Shown: positions 930-58,992 of the stretch, in pieces
Layout: the number at the start of each line of letters is the position of its first letter
How positions within the stretch are numbered: position 1 is the stretch's first letter
Assembly: GCF_011059185.1 (NCBI RefSeq)
Contig: NZ_JAALFE010000019.1
Span: 1 to 64,000, forward strand
Source: Paragemmobacter kunshanensis
GTDB taxonomy: Bacteria; Pseudomonadota; Alphaproteobacteria; Rhodobacterales; Rhodobacteraceae
Length of the DNA: 64,000 nucleotides
Reading direction: 5' to 3'
Position numbers and translations under genes: made by a program
The notes under the pieces: generated by a model
What the model was told of the DNA's origin: nothing
The model's database searches: none
What the model saw: only the letters and a program-made list of their open reading frames with translations

Positions 930-1005
930 GATTTTTCTGCGAAAAATCTGGGTGCGCCCGCCTTGCAGGCGGAGCGCACAATGCCGGAATTTTCGCAGAA
1001 AATTC
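930..1005. repeat. Inverted pair of A/T-stem triloop palindromes around a GC hairpin
   Basis: GATTTTTC-TGC-GAAAAATC lies at 930-948 and GAATTTTC-GCA-GAAAATTC at 987-1005. On the minus strand the first reads C-GCA-G at its loop, so the two copies face opposite ways. Between them a GC hairpin (952-957 with 974-979, inner stem 958-963 with 967-972, one bulged A) fills the gap. The block sits between kynU and kynA. It may end or protect the kynU transcript, or be a REP/BIME-like repeat; the function is not shown by sequence. Confidence 0.75.
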
Positions 1006-7594: not shown

Positions 7595-7636
7595 GGGGGG
7601 GCCACAGCCCCCCCCCGATTTTTCGCAGAAAAATCG
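7595..7636. terminator. Hairpin terminator with triloop palindrome between convergent genes
   Basis: GGGGGGGC (7595-7602) pairs with GCCCCCCC (7607-7614) around CACA and is followed by CGATTTTT, the form of a terminator for the plus-strand gene. The T run is the left arm of a second palindrome, CGATTTTTC-GCA-GAAAAATCG (7616-7636), of the same class as those at 930, 987, 28925, 29013 and 58968. On the minus strand the palindrome is flanked by a G run, so it could also serve the end of the importer operon. Confidence 0.6.
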
Positions 7637-7657
7637 CCCCCCCCGGGCGCGGGCGCC

Positions 7658-8581
7658 TCAGCGCCCGCGGATGCGCGGATCCAGTGCGTCGCGCAGACCG
7701 TCGCCGATATAGTTCACGCTCAGCACCGTCAGCGAAATCGCCAGCCCCGGCCAGATCACGCGCTCCGGATAGGTCCGGATCTCGGCGATCCCGTCATACA
7801 AGAGCCGCCCCCAGGTCGGGAAATCCGGCGGAAAGCCGAGGCCCAGGAAGGACAGCACCGATTCCGTGATGATCGCCGCGGCGATCCCCAGCGTCGCCGC
7901 CACAAGAACGGGCGACAGCACGTTGGGCAGGATATGCCGCGTGATGATCCGCCGCGATGGCGTGCCGATCGACCGCGCCGCCAGCACGAATTCGCGTTCC
8001 TTCAGCGCCAGCACCTCGCCCCGCACCACCCGCGCCGCCTGCATCCAGCTTGTCAGCCCGATGGCCATGACGATCAGCAGGAAGGTCCCCAGCCGCGGGC
8101 CAAGGATGCCCGCCACCGTGTCGCGGAACAGGAAGATCATCACCAGCAGCAGGGGCAGCAGCGGCAGCGCAAGGAAGAGGTCGGTCAGCCGCATCAGAAG
8201 CCCGTCGATCCGCCGGAAGAAGCCTGCCATCACCCCTACTGTCGTGCCGATGAAGATGGCCACCAGCATCGCCACCGTCCCCACGGCCAGCGAGATGCGC
8301 CCCCCGAACATCATCCGCGCCAGCATGTCGCGGCCCAGCTGATCGGTCCCCAGCGGATGCGCCAGGCTCGGCCCCTGATTGCGCATCTTGAACATTTTCA
8401 CCGTGTCGCTTTCGATGAAGTTCGGGTCGATCCGCCAGACCAGCGGCCCGATCAGACAGAACACCGCCAGCCCCCCCAGCAGGAACAGCGCCGTCATCGC
8501 GCCCTTGTGCTTGCGGAACTGCGCCCAGACATCGCCCCAGGGGCCACGCACCTTTTCTATCTGCACGGCGGTCTCAGTCAT
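7658..8581 (-). CDS. dppC: Peptide ABC transporter permease, DppC/OppC type
   Basis: One of two inner-membrane permeases of a peptide/nickel-type (PepT) importer. The 307 residues show a first helix at ~28-50, an N-terminal domain with HPLGTDQLGRDMLARMMFGG, and a binding-protein-dependent transport core with the EAA-type loop AARSIGTPSRRIITRHILPN, which contacts the ATPases. It ends DGLRDALDPRIRGR, as is common in the family. The ATG at 8581 overlaps the dppB stop by eight bases, so translation is probably coupled. It is the last gene of the five-gene operon; the ligand is not known. Confidence 0.9.
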   Translation of the reverse strand: MTETAVQIEKVRGPWGDVWAQFRKHKGAMTALFLLGGLAVFCLIGPLVWRIDPNFIESDTVKMFKMRNQGPSLAHPLGTDQLGRDMLARMMFGGRISLAVGTVAMLVAIFIGTTVGVMAGFFRRIDGLLMRLTDLFLALPLLPLLLVMIFLFRDTVAGILGPRLGTFLLIVMAIGLTSWMQAARVVRGEVLALKEREFVLAARSIGTPSRRIITRHILPNVLSPVLVAATLGIAAAIITESVLSFLGLGFPPDFPTWGRLLYDGIAEIRTYPERVIWPGLAISLTVLSVNYIGDGLRDALDPRIRGR

Positions 8582-13644: not shown

Positions 13645-14814
13645 ATGCCCGCCGCCGTCACGCTGTCGCCGCGCCAGATCCTTGATCGACTGGTAAAATT
13701 CCCCACCGTCAGCCGCGACACCAACCTTCCCCTGATCGACTGGGTCGAGGACTACCTCGCCTCCCACGGCATCACGGCGCATCGCCACTGGCACGAAGAT
13801 GGCACCAAGGCCGCGCTTTTCGCCCATGTCGGGCCGTGGGAAGAGGGGGCGGTCGTCCTGTCGGGCCATACCGATGTCGTCCCGGTCGAAGGGCAGGACT
13901 GGACCTCGGATCCCTGGACGGTGACGGAACGCGACGGCCGCCTCTATGGCCGCGGCACCTGCGACATGAAGGGATTCGACGCCCTCGCCCTCTGGGCGCT
14001 GGTCGAGGCGCATCAGCGCGGGGTGAAACGCCCGCTCCAGATCGCATTGAGCTATGACGAAGAGGTGGGCTGCACCGGCGCCCCGCCCATGATCGCCGCC
14101 ATGCAGGGGGTGGTTCCGAAAGGGGCCGCCGCCATCATCGGCGAACCCTCCCTGATGAAGGTCATCAACGGCCACAAGGGCGGCACGGGGTTCCACGTCC
14201 ATGTGAAAGGGTTCGAGGTGCATTCCTCGCTGCTGCCCTATGGCGTGTCGGCCATCATGGAAGGCGCGCGGTTGATCCAATGGGCCAATGACCGCAATGC
14301 ATGGATCCAGGGCCAGCCCCGCAGCGCCCAGGCGCTGCCCTTCGATCCGCCCTTCACCACGCTGCATGTCGGCATGATCCAGGGCGGCACGGCGCATAAC
14401 ATCACCGCCGCCGATTGCCGCTTTGCCCTCGAAATGCGGGTCGTGCCGGGGGAAGAGGTGGAAACCCACGCCCAGGCCTTCATCGCCGAGGCCGCGCGCA
14501 TCGACGCCGCGATGAAACAGATCCGCCCCGAGGCGGGCATCCATCTTGACCGTTTCTTCGGCGTCCCCGCCCTGCAACCCGAACAGGACGGCGCGGCCGA
14601 GGCGATCTGCCGCCGCCTGACCGGCGACAATGCCACGGGCGTCGTCTCCTATGGCACCGAAGCGGGGCAGTTCCAGGAGGCGGGCTATTCCGCCGCCATC
14701 TGCGGCCCCGGCGACATCGCCCAGGCGCATCAGCCCGATGAATGGCTGTCGCTTGCCGAATTCGAGGCGGGCCACCGCTTCATGCAACGCCTGCTGGACG
14801 AGCTTTCCCGATGA
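13645..14814 (+). CDS. argE: Acetylornithine deacetylase (ArgE/M20 family)
   Basis: A zinc-type M20 deacylase of 389 residues that would remove the acetyl group from N-acetylornithine or a related N-acyl amino acid. Metal-site motifs are visible: SGHTDVVPVEGQDW (His and Asp ligands, ~72), GRGTCDMKGFDA (~104), and YDEEVGCTGAPPM (catalytic Glu, ~138). The dimerisation domain follows from ~180, and the last His ligand is probably in the C-terminal IAQAHQPDEWLSLAEF. The ATG at 13645 lies at good distance from GGGG; an ATG nine bases upstream is too close. It diverges from the peptide importer and overlaps the next gene (ATGA). Confidence 0.85.
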   Translation: MPAAVTLSPRQILDRLVKFPTVSRDTNLPLIDWVEDYLASHGITAHRHWHEDGTKAALFAHVGPWEEGAVVLSGHTDVVPVEGQDWTSDPWTVTERDGRLYGRGTCDMKGFDALALWALVEAHQRGVKRPLQIALSYDEEVGCTGAPPMIAAMQGVVPKGAAAIIGEPSLMKVINGHKGGTGFHVHVKGFEVHSSLLPYGVSAIMEGARLIQWANDRNAWIQGQPRSAQALPFDPPFTTLHVGMIQGGTAHNITAADCRFALEMRVVPGEEVETHAQAFIAEAARIDAAMKQIRPEAGIHLDRFFGVPALQPEQDGAAEAICRRLTGDNATGVVSYGTEAGQFQEAGYSAAICGPGDIAQAHQPDEWLSLAEFEAGHRFMQRLLDELSR

Positions 14815-16157
14815 TGCGCTTCCCCATCTCCGACGCCTCCCCCATCCGCTTTCCCGGCCCACCCCCCGCCGCCTGCGATGTTGTCGTGCTGGGCGGCGGC
14901 GTCATCGGGGTGATGACGGCCTGGTTCCTGGCCGAAAAGGGCCTCAAGGTCACGCTCTGCGAAAAGGGCCGCATCGCGGGCGAACAATCCAGCCGCAACT
15001 GGGGCTGGATCCGCCAGCAGGGCCGCGACATGGGCGAACTCCCCATCATGATGGAAAGCCTGCGTATCTGGAAATCGCTGGCGCAGGAAATGGGCGAAGG
15101 CCTGGGCTTCCGGCAGGAAGGTGTCCTCTACCTCGCCAAGACCGAGGCCGAGGTGGAAAGGTTCGAAGCCTGGCTGGACGAGGCCCGTCCGCATGGCGTG
15201 GATACCCACATGATGGGATCGGGCGCGGTAACAGAGCGGCTGAAGGGCAGCGCCAAGCCCTGGGTCGCGGGGCTGCATACGCCCTCTGACGCCCGGGCCG
15301 AGCCGTGGCAGGCCGTGCCCCTTCTGGTGGAAGGGGCCATCGCGCGCGGCGCGGTGGTGGTGGAGAATTGCGCCATCCGCCGGCTGGATGTGCAGGCGGG
15401 CCGCGTGGCGGGGGTCTTCACGGAAGCAGGCCGCATCGCCTGCGATCAGGTCGTGGTGGCGGGGGGGGCCTGGTCGGCGCTGTTCCTGCGGGCGCATGGG
15501 GTGCATATCCCGCAACTGGCGGTGCTGGCCTCGGTCGCCGCGACCGAACCCATGGCCGAGATCTTTCCCGGCAATGCCTGCGACGACGATTTCGCCTTCC
15601 GCCGCCGCCAGGATGGCGGCTATTCCATCGCGCCGGGATCGGGGCATGATTTCTTTGTCGGCCCCGACGCCTTTCGCGATTTCTTCACCTATCTGCCGGT
15701 GCTGAAGAAGGATTTTCGCTCCACCGGCTTTCGCCCCATGGCCCCTGCGGGCTTTCCCGATGCCTGGGGCACCAGGCGGCGCTGGGGCGGGGACGAGGTT
15801 TCGCCCTTCGAAGGCATCCGCGTGCTGAACCCGGCCCCGAACATGGACCGGATCGCCCGCGTGCAGGCCGCCTTTGCCGAGGCCTTCCCCGGCATGGGCC
15901 GCCCCCGCCTGCGCGCGGCCTGGGGGGGCATGATCGACACCATGCCCGATGTCGTGCCCGTGGTGGACCGGGTGGCGGCCCTGCCGGGCCTGACCATCGC
16001 CACGGGGATGAGCGGCCACGGCTTCGGCATCGGCCCCGGCATGGGCCGCGTGGTGGCCGATCTGGTGGCGGGGGGCGATCCGGGCCATGACCTGACCCGC
16101 TTCCGCCTGTCACGCTTTACCGACGGGTCGCGGCTCATCCCCGGCCCCTCGCTGTAA
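14811..16157 (+). CDS. FAD-dependent amine/D-amino acid oxidoreductase (DAO family)
   Basis: A 448-residue flavoprotein of the glycine/D-amino acid oxidase family (PF01266). The dinucleotide-binding motif VVVLGGGVIGVMTAWFLAEKG lies at ~23, followed by EKGRIAGEQSSRNWGWIRQQ, a close match to the FAD-contacting segment of this family. The C-terminus has the usual IATGMSGHGFGIGPGMGRVVADL. The substrate is unknown; relatives oxidise sarcosine, D-amino acids or opine-like amines. The start ATGATG overlaps the argE stop, so the two are co-translated and probably act in one pathway on an amino-acid-like substrate. No Cys for covalent flavin was identified. Confidence 0.85.
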   Translation: MMRFPISDASPIRFPGPPPAACDVVVLGGGVIGVMTAWFLAEKGLKVTLCEKGRIAGEQSSRNWGWIRQQGRDMGELPIMMESLRIWKSLAQEMGEGLGFRQEGVLYLAKTEAEVERFEAWLDEARPHGVDTHMMGSGAVTERLKGSAKPWVAGLHTPSDARAEPWQAVPLLVEGAIARGAVVVENCAIRRLDVQAGRVAGVFTEAGRIACDQVVVAGGAWSALFLRAHGVHIPQLAVLASVAATEPMAEIFPGNACDDDFAFRRRQDGGYSIAPGSGHDFFVGPDAFRDFFTYLPVLKKDFRSTGFRPMAPAGFPDAWGTRRRWGGDEVSPFEGIRVLNPAPNMDRIARVQAAFAEAFPGMGRPRLRAAWGGMIDTMPDVVPVVDRVAALPGLTIATGMSGHGFGIGPGMGRVVADLVAGGDPGHDLTRFRLSRFTDGSRLIPGPSL

Positions 16158-27029: not shown

Positions 27030-27689
27030 ATGCGGACTGTGGTCTTCGATCTGGACGGAACTTTGGCGGATACCTCGGCCGATCTGCTGGCCGCGGCGAA
27101 TGCCTGTTTCCGCGATCTGGGGCATGGCGACATGCTGACCCCCGCCGATACGCTGACCGCCTTTCACGGCGGAAGGGCCATGCTGCGGCTGGGCTTTTCC
27201 CGGTTGGGCGCGGTGTCCGAGACGATGATCGACGCGCAATATCCCCGCCTTCTGGCGGCCTATGCCGAGGGCATCGACACCCATACCCGCCTCTATCCCG
27301 GCGCAATCGCGGCGGTCGAGGTGCTGCGGGGCAGGGGCTTTGCCACCACGATCTGCACCAACAAGCCCGAAGGTCTGGCCGAAACGCTGGTGAACCGCCT
27401 CGGCATCCGCAGCCTGTTCGATGTGCTGATCGGGGCCGATACGCTGCCCACGCGCAAGCCGGACGTGGCACCCTATGCGGCCTCGGTCGAACGTGCGGGC
27501 GGGCAGGTCGCGCGCTCCATGCTGGTGGGCGACACCGACACGGATCGCAAGACCGCCCGCGCGGCCGGGGTGCCGGTCGCGCTGGTGACCTTCGGCCCCG
27601 AAGGGCGCGACATCGCGCGCCTTGATCCTGATGCGCTGCTCGATCATTTCGACGAACTGCCGGAACTTGCGGAAAGGCTGGTGCGCTGA
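27030..27689 (+). CDS. gph: HAD-superfamily hydrolase, phosphoglycolate phosphatase-like
   Basis: A 219-residue HAD phosphatase with all four motifs: I, VFDLDGTLADT at ~5; II, TTICTNKPEG at ~108; III, the KPDVAPYAAS lysine at ~143; IV, MLVGDTDTDRKTARAAG at ~167. The helical cap between motifs I and II is the type seen in phosphoglycolate phosphatases, which clear 2-phosphoglycolate; exact substrate is inferred. There is no strong ribosome site before the ATG at 27030, but longer frames are shadows of glmU. It overlaps the DegT gene by one base (TGATG). Confidence 0.8.
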   Translation: MRTVVFDLDGTLADTSADLLAAANACFRDLGHGDMLTPADTLTAFHGGRAMLRLGFSRLGAVSETMIDAQYPRLLAAYAEGIDTHTRLYPGAIAAVEVLRGRGFATTICTNKPEGLAETLVNRLGIRSLFDVLIGADTLPTRKPDVAPYAASVERAGGQVARSMLVGDTDTDRKTARAAGVPVALVTFGPEGRDIARLDPDALLDHFDELPELAERLVR

Positions 27690-28918
27690 TGGAACGCTTC
27701 ACGGGCAGCTTCACCCAGCAGGAGCCCATCCCCGACGCAGGCATCGAGGCCGCGCTCGCCGTGCTGCGCCATGGGCGGCTGCATCGCTACAACACCGCCC
27801 CCGGCGAACTGTCCGAGACCGCGCTTCTGGAAGAGGAATTCGCCTCCCTCACCGGCGCGCGCTACTGCCTTGCCGTGGCCTCGGGCGGCTATGCCATGGC
27901 CTGTGCCCTGCGCGCCATCGGGGTTCGCGCGGGGGACAGGGTGCTGTCCAATGCCTTCACCCTTGCCCCGGTGCCCGGCGCCATCGCCTCGATCGGCGCG
28001 GTGCCGGTCTTCGTGGAGGTCGCCGAAGACCTGACCATCGACCTCGCCCATCTGGAACAGCAGGCCAATGCCTCGGGCGCGCGCGTCCTTCTGCTGTCGC
28101 ACATGCGCGGACATGTCTGCGACATGGACCGCCTGATGGCGCTTTGCGACAGGCTTGGCGTTACCGTGGTGGAGGATTGCGCCCATACGATGGGCGCAAC
28201 CTGGAAGGGTATCCCCTCGGGCCGACATGGCAAGGTCGCGGCCTATTCGATGCAGACCTACAAGCACGTCAATTCCGGCGAGGGCGGCTTCCTGATCACC
28301 GACGATCCGCAGGTCGCCGCCCGCGCCGTGCTGCTGTCGGGCAGCTACATGCTCTATGCCCGCCACCGCGCCGCCCCCCCGCCCGAAGCCTTTGAAGGCA
28401 TCCGCCTCGACACGCCCAACATTTCGGGCCGGATGGACAATCTGCGCGCGGCGATCCTGCGCCCGCAACTGCCTCTGCTGGCAGATCGGGTGCGGCGCTG
28501 GGGCCTGCTCTACCGCAGCCTGGAGGCGGGCCTGACCGAGACGCCGGGCCTGCACCTGATCCCGCGGCCCGCGCATGAGGTCTATGTCGGCTCCTCGTTC
28601 CAGTTCCTGCTGCGGGACTGGCCGGCCGGGCGCATCCAGGCGGTGATCGCCCGCTGCGCTGCGCGCGGGGTCGAGTTGAAATGGTTCGGCGCGCCCGATC
28701 CCGTGGCCTTCACCAGCCGCTACGATCACTGGCGCTATGCCGATCCTGCACCATTGCCGCAGACCGACCGGGTGCTTGCAGGCCTGATCGACATGCGCGT
28801 GCCGCTGACCTTCACGCCCGAGGATTGCGCGCTGATCGCCCGCATCATCCGGGCCGAGGTTCTGGCCGTGCAGCAATCCGGGGAAGAGGCGGCAACCGCG
28901 GCTCCTCTGGCCGATTGA
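27689..28918 (+). CDS. DegT/DnrJ/EryC1/StrS family PLP aminotransferase
   Basis: A 409-residue fold-type I PLP protein of the sugar aminotransferase family. SGGYAMACALRAIGV and ADLTID-type segments bind cofactor, VVEDCAHTMGATWKG carries the Asp that contacts the PLP ring nitrogen, and YSMQTYKHVNSGEGGFL holds the Schiff-base lysine at ~191. Family members transfer amino groups to keto-sugars, yet no sugar nucleotide genes lie nearby; the partner gene encodes a phosphatase. The substrate is therefore unknown. Its 3' end faces creA across a dense array of palindromes. Confidence 0.85.
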   Translation: MERFTGSFTQQEPIPDAGIEAALAVLRHGRLHRYNTAPGELSETALLEEEFASLTGARYCLAVASGGYAMACALRAIGVRAGDRVLSNAFTLAPVPGAIASIGAVPVFVEVAEDLTIDLAHLEQQANASGARVLLLSHMRGHVCDMDRLMALCDRLGVTVVEDCAHTMGATWKGIPSGRHGKVAAYSMQTYKHVNSGEGGFLITDDPQVAARAVLLSGSYMLYARHRAAPPPEAFEGIRLDTPNISGRMDNLRAAILRPQLPLLADRVRRWGLLYRSLEAGLTETPGLHLIPRPAHEVYVGSSFQFLLRDWPAGRIQAVIARCAARGVELKWFGAPDPVAFTSRYDHWRYADPAPLPQTDRVLAGLIDMRVPLTFTPEDCALIARIIRAEVLAVQQSGEEAATAAPLAD

Positions 28919-28924
28919 GGATAC

Positions 28925-29060
28925 GAATTTTCTGCGAAAATTCTGCAGGGCGATCCTTCTGCGAAGGATCATGTCCCCGCCATGCAAGCGTCTTGCCATG
29001 CCGCAGGCATGAGAATTTTCGCAGAAAATTCGTCACTCCCTGAATTTTCGCAGAAAATTC
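28925..29060. repeat. Array of short triloop palindromes between convergent genes
   Basis: Perfect eight-base stems with three-base loops: GAATTTTC-TGC-GAAAATTC (28925-28943), GATCCTTC-TGC-GAAGGATC (28952-28970), GAATTTTC-GCA-GAAAATTC at 29013-29031 and again at 29042-29060. Two further hairpins lie between: CATGCAAG-CGT-CTTGCCATG (one extra C, 28981-29000) and CATGCC-GCA-GGCATG (28997-29011), which share CATG. The first two face the minus strand and the last two the plus strand by loop sequence. It lies in the 177-base gap after the DegT gene and before the creA stop. Confidence 0.85.
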
Positions 29061-29095: not shown

Positions 29096-29596
29096 CTATT
29101 CCACGCCCTGCGCATTCCACAGCGGCACGGTCGAGATCGACATCTTCGCCGATCCTTCCGTCACCTCGCGGGCATGGGCCAGATAGATCAGCGTCCGGTT
29201 CGCCTCGTCATAGATGCGCGTGATCGAAAGCGACTTCAGAAGCAGCGACTGCCGCTCGGAAAAGATCTCCTCCCCCTCCGGCCCGCGGCGGATGTCGCCC
29301 AGGGTGATCGGCCCGGTCTGGCGGCAGGCGATGGAGGAATTCGACGGATCCTCGAACCAGTTTCCCTGCACCAGCCGGTCGATGGTGGAGCGTTCGAAAT
29401 AAGCCAGATGGCAGGTCACCCCCGCCACGTCGGGATCCGGCAGGGCTTCGATCAGGATGTCATTGCCGATCCAGTCCACGCCGATGCTGCCCACCTCCTC
29501 GGCCCCCGCGGAAAAGGGGGCAAGGAAGGCCGAAAGGATCAGCGCGGCAAGGGCAGGGCGGCGGGGCAGGGCAGGCGTTCCGGGCAGGATGGGCAT
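29096..29596 (-). CDS. creA: CreA family exported protein
   Basis: A 166-residue secreted protein resembling the CreA family of unknown function. A signal peptide (PALAALILSAFLAPFSAGA) precedes the mature EEVGSIGVDWIGNDILIEA. The conserved-looking blocks DPDVAGVTCHLAYFERS, GNWFEDPSNSSIACRQTGPI and LLLKSLSITRIYDEANRTLIYLAHA follow; two cysteines could form a disulfide. GAGGAG lies seven bases before the ATG at 29596 and four before one at 29599; either could be used. It diverges from the nuo operon. Confidence 0.85.
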   Translation of the reverse strand: MPILPGTPALPRRPALAALILSAFLAPFSAGAEEVGSIGVDWIGNDILIEALPDPDVAGVTCHLAYFERSTIDRLVQGNWFEDPSNSSIACRQTGPITLGDIRRGPEGEEIFSERQSLLLKSLSITRIYDEANRTLIYLAHAREVTEGSAKMSISTVPLWNAQGVE

Positions 29597-29760
29597 CATG
29601 GGGCTCCTCGGTCGGGGATGGGGCGAGACAATCGCAAAGCCGCCCCGGATGCCAGTGCCTTGGTCGCCGGGCGGCAGATTGCGGCTTGTCCGACAGAAAC
29701 GCTCGGCGACTCGCTTCGCGATATCCGTTCCCTGCCGGTGCCGCGCCGCGGCATCCCGCC

Positions 29761-29780
29761 TTGTGTGCCATGGCATACAA
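29761..29780. promoter_or_regulatory. 20-bp palindromic operator-like site upstream of nuoA
   Basis: TTGTGTGCCATGGCATACAA is symmetric except for one pair (G/T at positions 5 and 16). A/T ends with a GCCATGGC centre are typical of a dimeric repressor site of the GntR or LacI type. It is 47 bases before the candidate -35 box of the nuo promoter and could serve either diverging gene. Confidence 0.45.
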
Positions 29781-38176: not shown

Positions 38177-40190
38177 CCTGAAGAAGATCAACATCGACGG
38201 CATCGAGGTCGAGGTGGATGGTGCCATGACCATCATCCAGGCGGCCGAGGTTGCGGGCGTGGAAATCCCCCGTTTTTGCTATCACGAACGCTTGTCGATC
38301 GCCGGCAACTGCCGGATGTGCCTTGTTGAAGTCGTGGGCGGTCCGCCGAAACCCGCCGCTTCCTGCGCGATGCAGGTCCGCGACCTGCGCCCCGGCCCGA
38401 ATGGCGAGGCGCCGGTCGTCAAGACCAAGTCGCCGATGGTCAAGAAGGCCCGCGAAGGGGTGATGGAATTCCTGCTCATCAACCACCCGCTCGACTGCCC
38501 GATCTGCGATCAGGGCGGCGAATGCGACCTGCAGGATCAGGCGATGGCTTACGGCGTGGACTTCTCGCGCTACCGCGAACCGAAGCGGGCGTCGGATGAC
38601 CTGAACCTTGGCCCGCTGGTGGCCACCAAGATGACGCGTTGCATCTCCTGCACGCGCTGCGTCCGCTTCACCACCGAAGTCGCGGGCATCACCCAGATGG
38701 GCCAGACCGGGCGCGGCGAGGATAGCGAGATCACCTCCTACCTCAACATGACGCTCGACAGTAACCTGCAGGGCAACATCATCGACCTCTGCCCCGTCGG
38801 TGCGCTGACGTCGAAGCCTTACGCCTTCACCGCGCGTCCGTGGGAACTGACCAAGACCGAAACCATCGACGTGATGGATGCGCTGGGGTCGAACATCCGC
38901 GTGGATACCAAGGGCCGCGAAGTCATGCGCATCCTGCCGCGCAACCATGACGGCGTGAACGAGGAATGGATTTCCGACAAGACCCGCTTCGTCTGGGACG
39001 GCCTGCGCCGCCAGCGTCTGGACACGCCCTATATCCGCGAAAATGGCAAGCTGCGGAAGGCGGGCTGGGGCGAGGCGCTGGCCGCTGCCGCCGCTGCCAT
39101 GAAGGGCAGGAAGGTTGCAGCACTTGTCGGCGATCTGGCCCCGGTCGAGGCGATCTTCAGCCTCAAGCAACTGGTCGAAGGTCTGGGCGGCAAGATCGAA
39201 GCCCGCACCGATGGCGCGCGCCTGCCTGCGGGCAACCGCTCGGCCTATGTCGGCACTGCCTGCATCGAGGATATCGACAGCGCGAAGTCGATCCTGCTGA
39301 TCGGCACCAACCCGCGTGTCGAGGCGGCGGTCCTGAACGCCCGCATCCGCAAGGCCTGGACGCTGGGAGCCAAGGTCGCGCTGGTCGGGCCTGCGGTCGA
39401 TCTGACCTATGACTACCACCACGCCGGCACCGACCGCGCCGCGCTGACCGCCCTCGTGGCCGAGGCGCAGAAGGCCGGACCTGACGGCAAGCTCGCCGTC
39501 GTGATCATCGGCCAAGGCGCGATCAACGAGGCGGATGGCGAGGCCGTGCTGTCGCAGGCGATGGCTCTGTGCTCTGCCACGGGCGCGAAGCTTCTGGTCC
39601 TGCACACCGCCGCGTCGCGTGTCGGCGCGCTGGACGTGGGGGCCGTCACCGAAGGCGGCCTTGCCGCCGCGACCGAAGGCGCAGAGGTGATCTACAACCT
39701 TGGCGCGGATGAGGTGGAAATCGCCCCCGGTCCCTTCGTCATCTATCAGGGCAGCCATGGCGACCGTGGCGCGATGCGCGCCGACGTGATCCTTCCGGGC
39801 GCGGCCTGGACCGAGGAGAACGGCCTTTTCGTCAACACCGAAGGCCGCCCGCAACTGGCGCTCCGCGCCGGTTTCGCACCCGGCGAGGCGAAGGAGAACT
39901 GGGCGATCCTGCGCGCGCTGTCGGCCGAACTCGGCGCGACGCTGCCCTGGGACAGCATGGCCGCGCTGCGCCGTGCGCTGGTGGCGGCCCATCCGCATCT
40001 GGGCCGCGTGGACGAAGTCGCCGAAAACGCATGGCAGCCGCTGGAGGTGAAGGCCCCCGCCAAGGCCGATTTCCGCACTGCGATCAAGGACTTCTACCTC
40101 ACGAACCCCGTTGCCCGCGCCTCTGCCCTGATGGGCGAGCTGTCGGCCATGGCGGCGCAACGCGCCCGCGTTGCGCTGGCGGCGGAATGA
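38169..40190 (+). CDS. nuoG: NADH-quinone oxidoreductase subunit G
   Basis: The large iron-sulfur subunit of the NADH module, 673 residues. The N-terminal ferredoxin domain holds [2Fe-2S] N1b ([20 protein letters not shown], plus a later Cys in ASCAMQV). A His-Cys cluster follows in [18 protein letters not shown], then the N4 motif [10 protein letters not shown] with CPVGAL. The rest is a molybdopterin-oxidoreductase-like domain without cofactor. It overlaps both neighbouring small genes by a few bases. Confidence 0.96.
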
Positions 40191-40609
40191 GGCAGCCCGG
40201 AATGGCACATCGCGCAGGCATCATCGCAAGGGCAGGGGTCGCGGCAGCGGCCCTGTCGGCCTGCGCGCCTGCGGCGGGCGTGTCCAGCATGGGCAGCTTC
40301 AACCCGTCCTATCAGGGGATCGAGACGATCCTGCTGGACGGGGATCTGGTGAATTTCCGCGTCGCCATGAAAGGCGCGCGGGACAATGCGGATGTCGAGG
40401 CCTATGCGCGCTGCGCGGCGGCCCAATATGCGCTGATCCGCGGCGCGGGCTTTGCGCGGCATGTGCGCACGACCGTGGCGCGTTCAGGTGAAATCTGGCG
40501 GGGGGATGCGGTCTATACCATCTCTGCCGCCCTTCCGAGGGGCTTCAGGACAATCGACGCCGAAGTGATGGTGCGCGATTGCGGCTCGCTCGGGATACCG
40601 ACTGTCTGA
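40187..40609 (+). CDS. Predicted lipoprotein between nuoG and nuoH
   Basis: A 140-residue exported protein with a lipobox in [14 protein letters not shown] (Cys ~25). The mature domain ([61 protein letters not shown]) looks alpha/beta and has two Cys. The ATG at 40187 overlaps the nuoG stop (ATGA); an ATG at 40202 behind GAGG gives an equally good signal peptide. Similar unassigned genes occur at this point in relatives, from general knowledge; function unknown. Confidence 0.65.
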
Positions 40610-52563: not shown

Positions 52564-52601
52564 AAAAGGAAAGGGCCCCGAATTCGGGGCCCTTTCCTTT
52601 T
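52564..52601. terminator. 38-bp perfect palindrome, bidirectional terminator
   Basis: AAAAGGAAAGGGCCCCGAA is followed directly by its exact reverse complement, ending in CCTTTT. The A/T flanks give a T-rich tail on both strands. It lies 29 bases after the rnj stop and 14 before the helicase stop, so one element serves both convergent genes. Confidence 0.92.
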
Positions 52602-58885: not shown

Positions 58886-58992
58886 GAAAATTTTTCGTCG
58901 AAAAATTTTCCGGCGGGGGCCGTGCCCCCGCCAGCCCGCCCCGAGAAGGCCCGCGCCAGCGCGGGCCGAAAATTTTTCGGAGAAAAATTTTC
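58886..58992. repeat. Composite of two A/T palindromes and two GC hairpins
   Basis: GAAAATTTTTC-GTC-GAAAAATTTTC (58886-58910) and GAAAATTTTTC-GGA-GAAAAATTTTC (58968-58992) flank two GC hairpins: GGCGGGGGC-CGT-GCCCCCGCC (58912-58932) and GGCCCGCGC-CA-GCGCGGGCC (58948-58967). The stems are perfect. The block starts seven bases after the SDR stop and ends 93 bases before the ABC ATPase gene. It could end the SDR transcript. Confidence 0.85.

Follow-up and report, generated by a model that had tools for sequence, protein, structure and literature searches.

REP-like hairpins behind genes in Paragemmobacter kunshanensis and other Rhodobacteraceae: self-complementary palindromes, single or in fixed-pitch doublets

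The window, by which we mean the whole 64,000-nt stretch of Paragemmobacter kunshanensis DNA that was analyzed, carries a DegT family gene and a convergent CreA family gene, and the gap between them holds two doublets of hairpins that face each other (Table 1). An earlier note on this DNA had described eight perfect palindromes (at 930, 987, 7616, 28925, 28952, 29013, 29042, and 58968), and each was recovered, with a perfect stem of 8-11 bp and a three-base loop. The orientations given there were likewise correct: the GCA strand is the minus strand for the pair at 28925 and 28952 and the plus strand for the pair at 29013 and 29042. A ninth palindrome (58886-58910) had been overlooked; its loop, GTC, is not GNA on either strand. 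In all, the window (66% G+C) contains 18 perfect palindromes with arms of at least 8 bp and three-base loops, whereas 20 sequences drawn from a second-order Markov model averaged 3.55; nine of the 18 have a TTC-N3-GAA closure. By our own gene calls, all nine window palindromes are in gaps and have at least one gene end before them (9/9), in agreement with the siting in gaps after gene ends described previously. A search of Rfam at gathering score gave 0 matches in the window, the best weak hit falling at the quartet (E=2). Other strings repeated in 3' gaps, (CCAAA)TATCCTCGGGGG and CCTCCGGCGGGAGTATTTGGCGAAAGA, were observed at window positions 7595-7669; copies are also found elsewhere in the genus and beyond it in the Rhodobacteraceae (L057, L068, and L069; SDR and DUF3422 orthologs) and often adjoin GGGGGGC-ggaaa-GCCCCCC-like hairpins.

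Table 1. Positions of hairpins and neighboring genes in the 64-kb window.
Feature	Position	Strand	Remark
Type A hairpin GATTTTTC-TGC-GAAAAATC	930..948	+	Kynureninase / Trp dioxygenase gap; faces the hairpin at 987
Type A hairpin, outer stem ACAATGCC/GGCATTGT on minus strand	987..1005	-	
Type A hairpin, plus strand CGATTTTTC-GCA-GAAAAATCG	7616..7636	-	Between DUF3422 gene and OppC-like permease gene
DegT/DnrJ/EryC1/StrS family gene (PF01041)	27689..28918	+	Upstream neighbor of quartet
DegT-CreA quartet, two doublets facing each other	28925..29060		Hairpin array; orthologous gaps compared
Quartet hairpin 1, GAATTTTC-TGC-GAAAATTC	28925..28943	+	6 bp 3' of DegT stop
Quartet hairpin 2, GATCCTTC-TGC-GAAGGATC	28952..28970	+	Loop centre 27 bp from hairpin 1
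Quartet hairpin 3	29013..29031	-	TGC loop reads on minus strand
Quartet hairpin 4	29042..29060	-	Minus-strand TGC loop; loop centre 29 bp from hairpin 3
CreA family gene (PF05981)	29096..29776	-	Convergent neighbor of quartet
Terminator-like 18-bp palindrome	52564..52601		Orthologous gap in G007/G018: hairpin array beside retained terminator
A-like hairpin, loop GTC	58886..58910		
A-like hairpin, loop GGA	58968..58992		

Genome-wide (4.46 Mb, 117 contigs), GAATTTTCNNNGAAAATTC was found at 33 places (66 rows, as both strands were read) and its reversed control at 0, an excess; the stem GAATTTTC-N3-GAAAATTC enclosed a TGC/GCA loop at 29 of these 33 places. Loops were also tabulated in 864 kb of sequence, comprising the window, 400 kb of its own genome, and 400 kb of genome G008. 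Among the 33 TTC-N3-GAA palindromes of this sample (arms of at least 8 bp), the loop was TGC/GCA in 27, GGA in 2, and another sequence in 4. When 330 perfect intergenic hairpins (arm at least 8 bp, loop 3-5 bases) from 1.66 Mb of 11 genomes of the genus were sorted, 31 read TTC-TGC-GAA (type A) and 30 read xTG-ACG-CAx (type B); hairpins with like closing pairs and other loops numbered 16 and 20, 27 were otherwise A/T-rich, and 206 were GC-rich. Types A and B occur together in G000 and likewise in G008. The GNA-loop rule put forward earlier stands only for the first family, whose loops are non-random; it does not extend to orthologous hairpins, which carry other loops, or to the sister family, which reads G-ACG-C.

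The type A core, WTTTTCTGCGAAAAW, was present in 55 of 296 family genomes, once or twice in most and at least 10 times in seven (the window's genome, 69 copies; G114, 63; G107, 28; G283, 21; G232, 20; G127, 17; G308, 10). Its reversed control gave ten matches, so single hits may be due to chance. One type B stem was present in 4 of the 296 genomes. Among the matches listed, carriers of the type A 19-mer included species of Gemmobacter, Rhodovulum, Tabrizicola, and Pseudorhodobacter, together with a few unrelated low-GC genomes. CP059262.1, titled Exiguobacterium profundum SSD5, contains many type A hairpins (L020, L023, L032, L040, L044, and L048) and looks like a mislabelled Rhodobacteraceae MAG. 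In Bacterium D16-36 and a like locus (L026, L028, L071, L090, and L108), the type A 19-mer lies within a different repeat with a flank of about AGGGCACAGACTTCGC. The type A doublet, searched for with one pattern, was not found in viral contigs.

Several type A counts came from loci selected for an exact type A copy (98 of 112 kept, all >55% G+C), and loop counts from this set are therefore biased. The set also feeds the type A facing and cluster counts, the hairpin-pair pitch counts, and one wobble count (11:10), all given below; the loop and position counts in 864 kb, the sort of 330 hairpins, the 6:1 wobble test, and the core-anchored pairing test are independent of it. On the 5' side type A hairpins have a one-sided flank, the base at -1 being C in 115 of 129 and the base at -2 being A in 74 of 129. 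An outer GC stem of at least 5 was present in 19 of 129 (permuted mean, 7.0), and 14 of these 19 form a subclass whose outer stems are all offset alike, by 3 and 1 bases, some of the 14 being orthologous copies.

Pairing was assessed with a core-anchored test, in which the 9-bp core served only as the anchor and the next five pairs were scored. All five were complementary at 42 of 51 intergenic type A cores (permuted mean 14.2, maximum 21), at 30 of 43 intergenic type B cores (permuted mean 3.7, maximum 9), and at 20 of 26 intergenic cores of a third family, CTTCGAAG (permuted, 7.0). Pairing in type B was all or none, with zero cores having 3 or 4 of the 5 pairs. Within genes, full pairing was seen at 1 of 11 type A, 0 of 69 type B, and 0 of 64 third-family cores, and five scrambled control cores, pooled, were fully paired at 1 of 7 intergenic sites. 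The type A 19-mer occurred in four genomes as 102 perfect copies and 21 copies with one change, and the change lay in the three loop bases in 14 of the latter and in the sixteen stem bases in 7. The stems differ in sequence and stay Watson-Crick paired, and this also holds across species at the DegT-CreA gap.

At that gap, a hairpin array was present in 12 of the 18 genus genomes holding the gene, including G001 with three imperfect hairpins, and was absent in the other six (G017, G013, G003, G016, G015, and G010). In the 12 genomes, 366 of 376 cells were paired and every hairpin scored above the highest of 2000 shuffles. The number of distinct 5' arms per hairpin ranged from 4 to 9 in 11 genomes, a count that omits G001 and hairpin 4 of G014 because of mismatches, while the cell count includes both. 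Cores were of type B or B-like in G008, G012, and G014 and A-like in the remaining carriers, and most of the pairing variety reflects this contrast; among A-like genomes alone, the positions with at least two Watson-Crick pair types numbered 3, 1, 5, and 2 of 8 for hairpins 1-4, respectively. We also followed synteny through 29 gaps around the window. In nine of these, one genome or more had an A/T-rich hairpin, by our reading of the kinds described here in seven of the nine, and only the DegT-CreA gap had a hairpin in all ten synteny genomes, which were picked among carriers of its array. Sites were gained and lost between species at orthologous gaps. Since sites come and go, and since six of 18 genomes lack the DegT-CreA array, no single site is essential.

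Hairpins that follow one another in the same direction keep a set distance, a feature that the earlier note overlooked, as it did the sister families and the persistence of the array across species. Measured between loop centres, type A pairs were 25-29 bp apart in 26 of 30 cases and type B pairs exactly 24 bp apart in 13 of 13. This pitch ignores stem length: arms measure 7-12 bp, and the length of the linker varies so as to compensate. A genome search blind to the palindromes, in which two cores 8-36 bp apart were sought and the start-to-start distance was taken, gave the same picture for type B, with 24 bp in 68 of 71 core pairs in G008, 33 of 34 in G006, and 27 of the 28 listed, out of 39, in G000, and with 23 bp in 13 of 17 in G286, a member of another genus; the reversed control had one match, in G005, and the forward matches listed did not extend to G002, G012, G014, and G005. 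Type A core pairs lay 26-28 bp apart in 46 of 65 cases, with a mode of 27 bp in G008 (8/14), G003 (6/6), and G127 (10/18). Spacing was mixed in G007 and G018, where only 3 of 8 and 2 of 7 pairs fell at 26-28 bp and 9 of the combined 15 lay at 21, 23, 24, or 44 bp, and no doublet was found by the core-pair search in G107, G283, and G232, despite their 28, 21, and 20 type A cores. Third-family neighbors were 22 bp apart among the matches listed (seven pairs, some of them orthologous).

The two main families differ in how often they form doublets. When 127 type A clusters were examined, with other loops not counted, 74 were single, 32 had opposite neighbors only, and 21 contained a same-direction doublet, so that the near-27-bp pitch applies to a minority of copies. 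By comparison, 28 of 30 type B hairpins had, by our reading, a same-direction B or B' neighbor at ~24 bp. Type B thus nearly always forms doublets, and type A occurs as singles, facing pairs, and a minority of doublets. Several type B doublets are packed unusually densely into ~1.3 kb of G000 (C52, 154823-156172). The third family, CAAATTTCTTCGAAGAAATTTG / CAAAAATCTTCCAAGATTTTTG, forms abutting doublets at 22 bp in G007 (14809-14852) and G018 (14252-14295) and was also found in G009, G011, G005, and G000.

Facing is strongly biased. Type A neighbors within 150 bp were inward in 41 cases, outward in 7, and same-direction in 32, and facing doublets form quartets, which bears out the earlier description of an inverted, dispersed set resembling REP/BIME elements. 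Type B doublets of G008 gave 22 inward pairings (two sharing a partner) and 0 outward within 300 bp, a count made on 69 of 71 doublets, with those at 30 and 35 bp set aside. Spacing between opposite neighbors was variable in type A (19-73 bp) and clustered at 38-40 bp in type B of G008 (8/22). Within type B doublets, the stems are almost always unlike: of 128 doublets with the 24-bp pitch, not counting G286, only 1 had equal stems, while 14.8 (sd 3.2) were expected, and none of 5000 shuffles of partners within a genome had so few equal-stem doublets. No such avoidance was seen among the 44 type A doublets compared, out of 65 (3 observed, 3.66 expected), a comparison from which G007, G018, G114, G308, and two long rows of G127 were excluded. 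Unlike type B stems are consistent both with avoided cross-pairing and with slippage that removes equal repeats.

With gene ends defined by our own codon-usage gene caller rather than by annotation, all 27 type A hairpins in the 864 kb (arms of at least 7 bp, TGC/GCA loop) were intergenic and 26 lay beside a gene 3' end. Twelve were in convergent gaps, 14 in tandem gaps, and 1 in a divergent gap; by length, convergent gaps made up 24% of the gap sequence in the same sample and divergent gaps 21% (22.5 of 105.6 kb). In the selected loci, 142 of 163 type A hairpins were intergenic, 9 were within called genes, and 12 were at edges, and 7 of the 142 were in divergent gaps; for types B and B' together, divergent gaps accounted for 6 of 50. 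Many type A hairpins lie <20 bp from a stop codon. Short palindromes in many copies, extragenic and located in convergent or unidirectional gaps next to 3' ends, are what is generally meant by REP sequences, and the present hairpins fit this description.

Our leading interpretation, held tentatively and at less than even confidence, is that these hairpins are a REP-like palindrome family of Rhodobacteraceae with an unusual architecture, in which single hairpins or fixed-pitch doublets, usually facing, are read at gene ends. It builds on the observed position, strict self-complementarity, pitch, and facing of the hairpins, on the one core and one pitch of each family, and on persistence at one orthologous gap.

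It is also possible, if somewhat doubtful, that the hairpins are passive, REP-like remnants, i.e., palindromes, selfish or neutral, that the genome tolerates behind genes, that template switching during replication keeps perfect, and that lose equal neighbors by slippage. The patchy copy number of the type A core, the many genomes with singles only, and the gain and loss at orthologous gaps are all consistent with this, and template switching is described in the passage of PMC8794818 cited here as creating and fixing stems. At the DegT-CreA gap, a single hybrid-looking hairpin in G001 takes the place of hairpins 3 and 4 of its relatives, and this looks like a deletion between two like cores, a slippage-type loss of equal repeats. 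G007 and G018, which are 98% identical, differ by double-base changes in hairpin arms, a further point for passive remnants. On the other hand, no element was gained or lost between these two genomes in 135 kb; of up to 51 gaps compared, one was flagged (39725-40281), G018 being ~560 bp longer there (C10, 39698-40281), and no A/T-rich hairpin was listed for it. Nor do passive remnants by themselves explain an exact 24-bp pitch with stems of 9-12 bp, or the conserved loop, closing pairs, and inward facing.

An RNA element appears unlikely. By this account, the hairpins would act in 3' UTRs, blocking 3' exonucleases after Rho-dependent termination or terminating transcription themselves. Their closeness to stops and scarcity between divergent genes would fit, as would their orientation, since the sense of the nearest gene end is shared by 22 of 30 type A and 22 of 28 type B hairpins. 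However, single type A hairpins in tandem gaps show no preference (23 sense, 19 antisense), and the bias near gene ends is therefore better attributed to inward facing than to transcription. Folded as RNA, the two type B examples tried reached -8.6 and -12.3 kcal/mol, but the commonest type A hairpin reached -4.1 kcal/mol only, and the window doublet prefers another fold. Wobble counts are divided: G-T (G-U) exceeded A-C by 6 to 1 in the TGC sense, but the counts were 11 to 10 in the selected loci and 2 to 3 in a third test, so that G-U was not favored in two of three tests. Since singles in tandem gaps favor neither sense and G-U pairs are not clearly tolerated, an action on both strands is favored over one RNA.

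The flanks speak further against termination itself: of the 26 type A and 28 type B hairpins examined, none was followed by a T-rich tail (at least 5 T in 8). In G007 and G018, an array of three perfect hairpins and one imperfect hairpin lies directly behind a stop, and the terminator of the relatives is still present downstream, its stem having a mismatch in G018. Intrinsic termination was rejected on these two grounds, and the suggestion of bidirectional terminators in the earlier note is not supported. Two gaps do contain a GC hairpin with a type A palindrome after it, and the 5' arm of that palindrome could serve as the U run, but the arrangement is not general.

A classic REP/BIME mobilized by a RAYT is highly improbable: the elements are palindromic, dispersed, in inverted sets, and flanked on one side by a conserved C, but the RAYT domain (Y1_Tnp, PF01797) scored over cut-off in 0 of 9 genus genomes (one weak hit, in G009) and was found in 5 of 14 control genomes, the doublets run in the same direction at fixed pitch, and the flank is AC rather than GTAG, so we rejected mobilization by a RAYT, and the earlier suggestion that the palindromes are RAYT products is not supported. 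With no RAYT found in the 9 genomes, missing U tails, and a quartet beside a retained terminator, neither classic REP mobility nor simple terminators fit.

Returning to REP-like hairpins read at gene ends, the palindromes would act when folded, either single-stranded or as cruciforms, and on both strands. Each core, i.e., the closing pairs and loop, would be read by one protomer of a postulated dimeric factor, and the pitch would be the distance between its two protomers. Such a factor could act in both directions, marking or insulating the 3' boundary of transcription units, and template switching during replication probably helps to keep the arms alike. We infer this reader from geometry alone, and the pitch could instead be inherited from an ancestral doublet, which would argue against a reader. 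Since type A is mostly found as single copies and doublets are missing from three genomes, the case for a fixed-pitch reader is weakened and that for passive remnants strengthened. A reader of folded DNA and passive repeats kept by template switching are compatible and can hold together, with the latter a close rival. We consider rather improbable a stricter two-hairpin code, in which a dimeric hairpin- or cruciform-binding protein, nuclease, or replication complex specific to each family would read the core of that family at its own pitch (TTC-TGC-GAA at 27 bp, xTG-ACG-CAx at 24 bp, or 23 in another genus, and TCT-TC(G/C)A-AGA at 22 bp), while arms drift and stay paired and facing doublets mark gene ends.

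To our knowledge, no mechanism has been described for REPs outside the RAYT families. A base-exact ruler, independent of stem length, predicts a specific reader and would give a sharp handle on such elements. Sister species carry the DegT-CreA array with unlike stems, a natural experiment that can tell conservation of folding from conservation of sequence. The evenly spaced, facing pairs may point to some protein or process by which folded DNA or RNA is recognized where genes end.

The elements share features with several known systems. C-GNA-G sequences form very stable DNA mini-hairpins, and type A reads C-GCA-G on one strand; however, other loops occur at orthologous positions and in type B. 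The energy model used gave equal DNA energies on both strands, and loop stability was rejected as the driver for lack of a strand difference. Intrinsic terminators, including bidirectional and tandem-hairpin forms, place hairpins close behind the stops of convergent genes, as is the case here. They are defined, in the passage of PMC12306157 cited here, by a stable hairpin followed by a T-rich tail. Unlike these, the present hairpins have no T-rich tail, and one gap holds both an array and a terminator. REPINs and BIMEs are dispersed, inverted sets of palindromes behind genes, a description that also covers our elements, whereas the lack of a RAYT hit over the cut-off in 9 genomes, the lack of a GTAG flank, and the same-direction doublets at fixed pitch separate them from GTAG REPs and REPINs. 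In the open-licence literature (titles and starts of abstracts), no account of these elements in Rhodobacterales was found, and the six core strings occurred only in a single, unrelated C. elegans paper. G000 contains, on one contig, two facing GC-rich hairpins, GTCCCGGGCTTGACCCGGGAC (72452-72472) and GCCCCGGGTCAAGCCCGGGGC (72510-72530), which we take to resemble the CGTC REPs of alpha-proteobacteria; this genome may hold both kinds, CGTC-like REPs and type A/B elements.

The closest comparison is with those CGTC REPs. The parts of Di Nocera et al. (2013; PMC3733652) cited here divide REPs into superfamilies with GTAG or CGTC tags and describe the latter as mainly alpha-proteobacterial and without a dedicated transposase, with loops mostly of 4-5 bases (exceptions are noted), the tag CGTC, and a tail mostly fitting CCA; facing dimers predominate and head-to-tail dimers are called negligible. 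Set against that description, our elements are similar in being short palindromes with stems of 8-9 bp, a one-sided unpaired motif, and no dedicated transposase, in lying near gene 3' ends in convergent or unidirectional gaps, and in forming facing dimers often with unlike stems. They differ in their three-base loops, 5' flank AC, A/T-rich stems, and same-direction doublets at fixed pitch. The type A flank reads (G/C)AC on the TGC strand; on the complementary strand the final stem base, C, is followed by GT(G/C), so that the GCA strand often reads C-GT-C/G across the stem end, which may or may not relate to the CGTC tag, whose ends are taken from the description in PMC3733652. On account of loop length, and because head-to-tail dimers are all but absent among CGTC REPs, we place our elements outside that superfamily. 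The fixed pitch, the facing quartets, the stems that drift yet stay paired, and the unlike stems of type B doublets are new here, and we read the elements as REP-like repeats of a new architecture, with a putative function at gene ends, that belong to neither the GTAG nor the CGTC superfamily.
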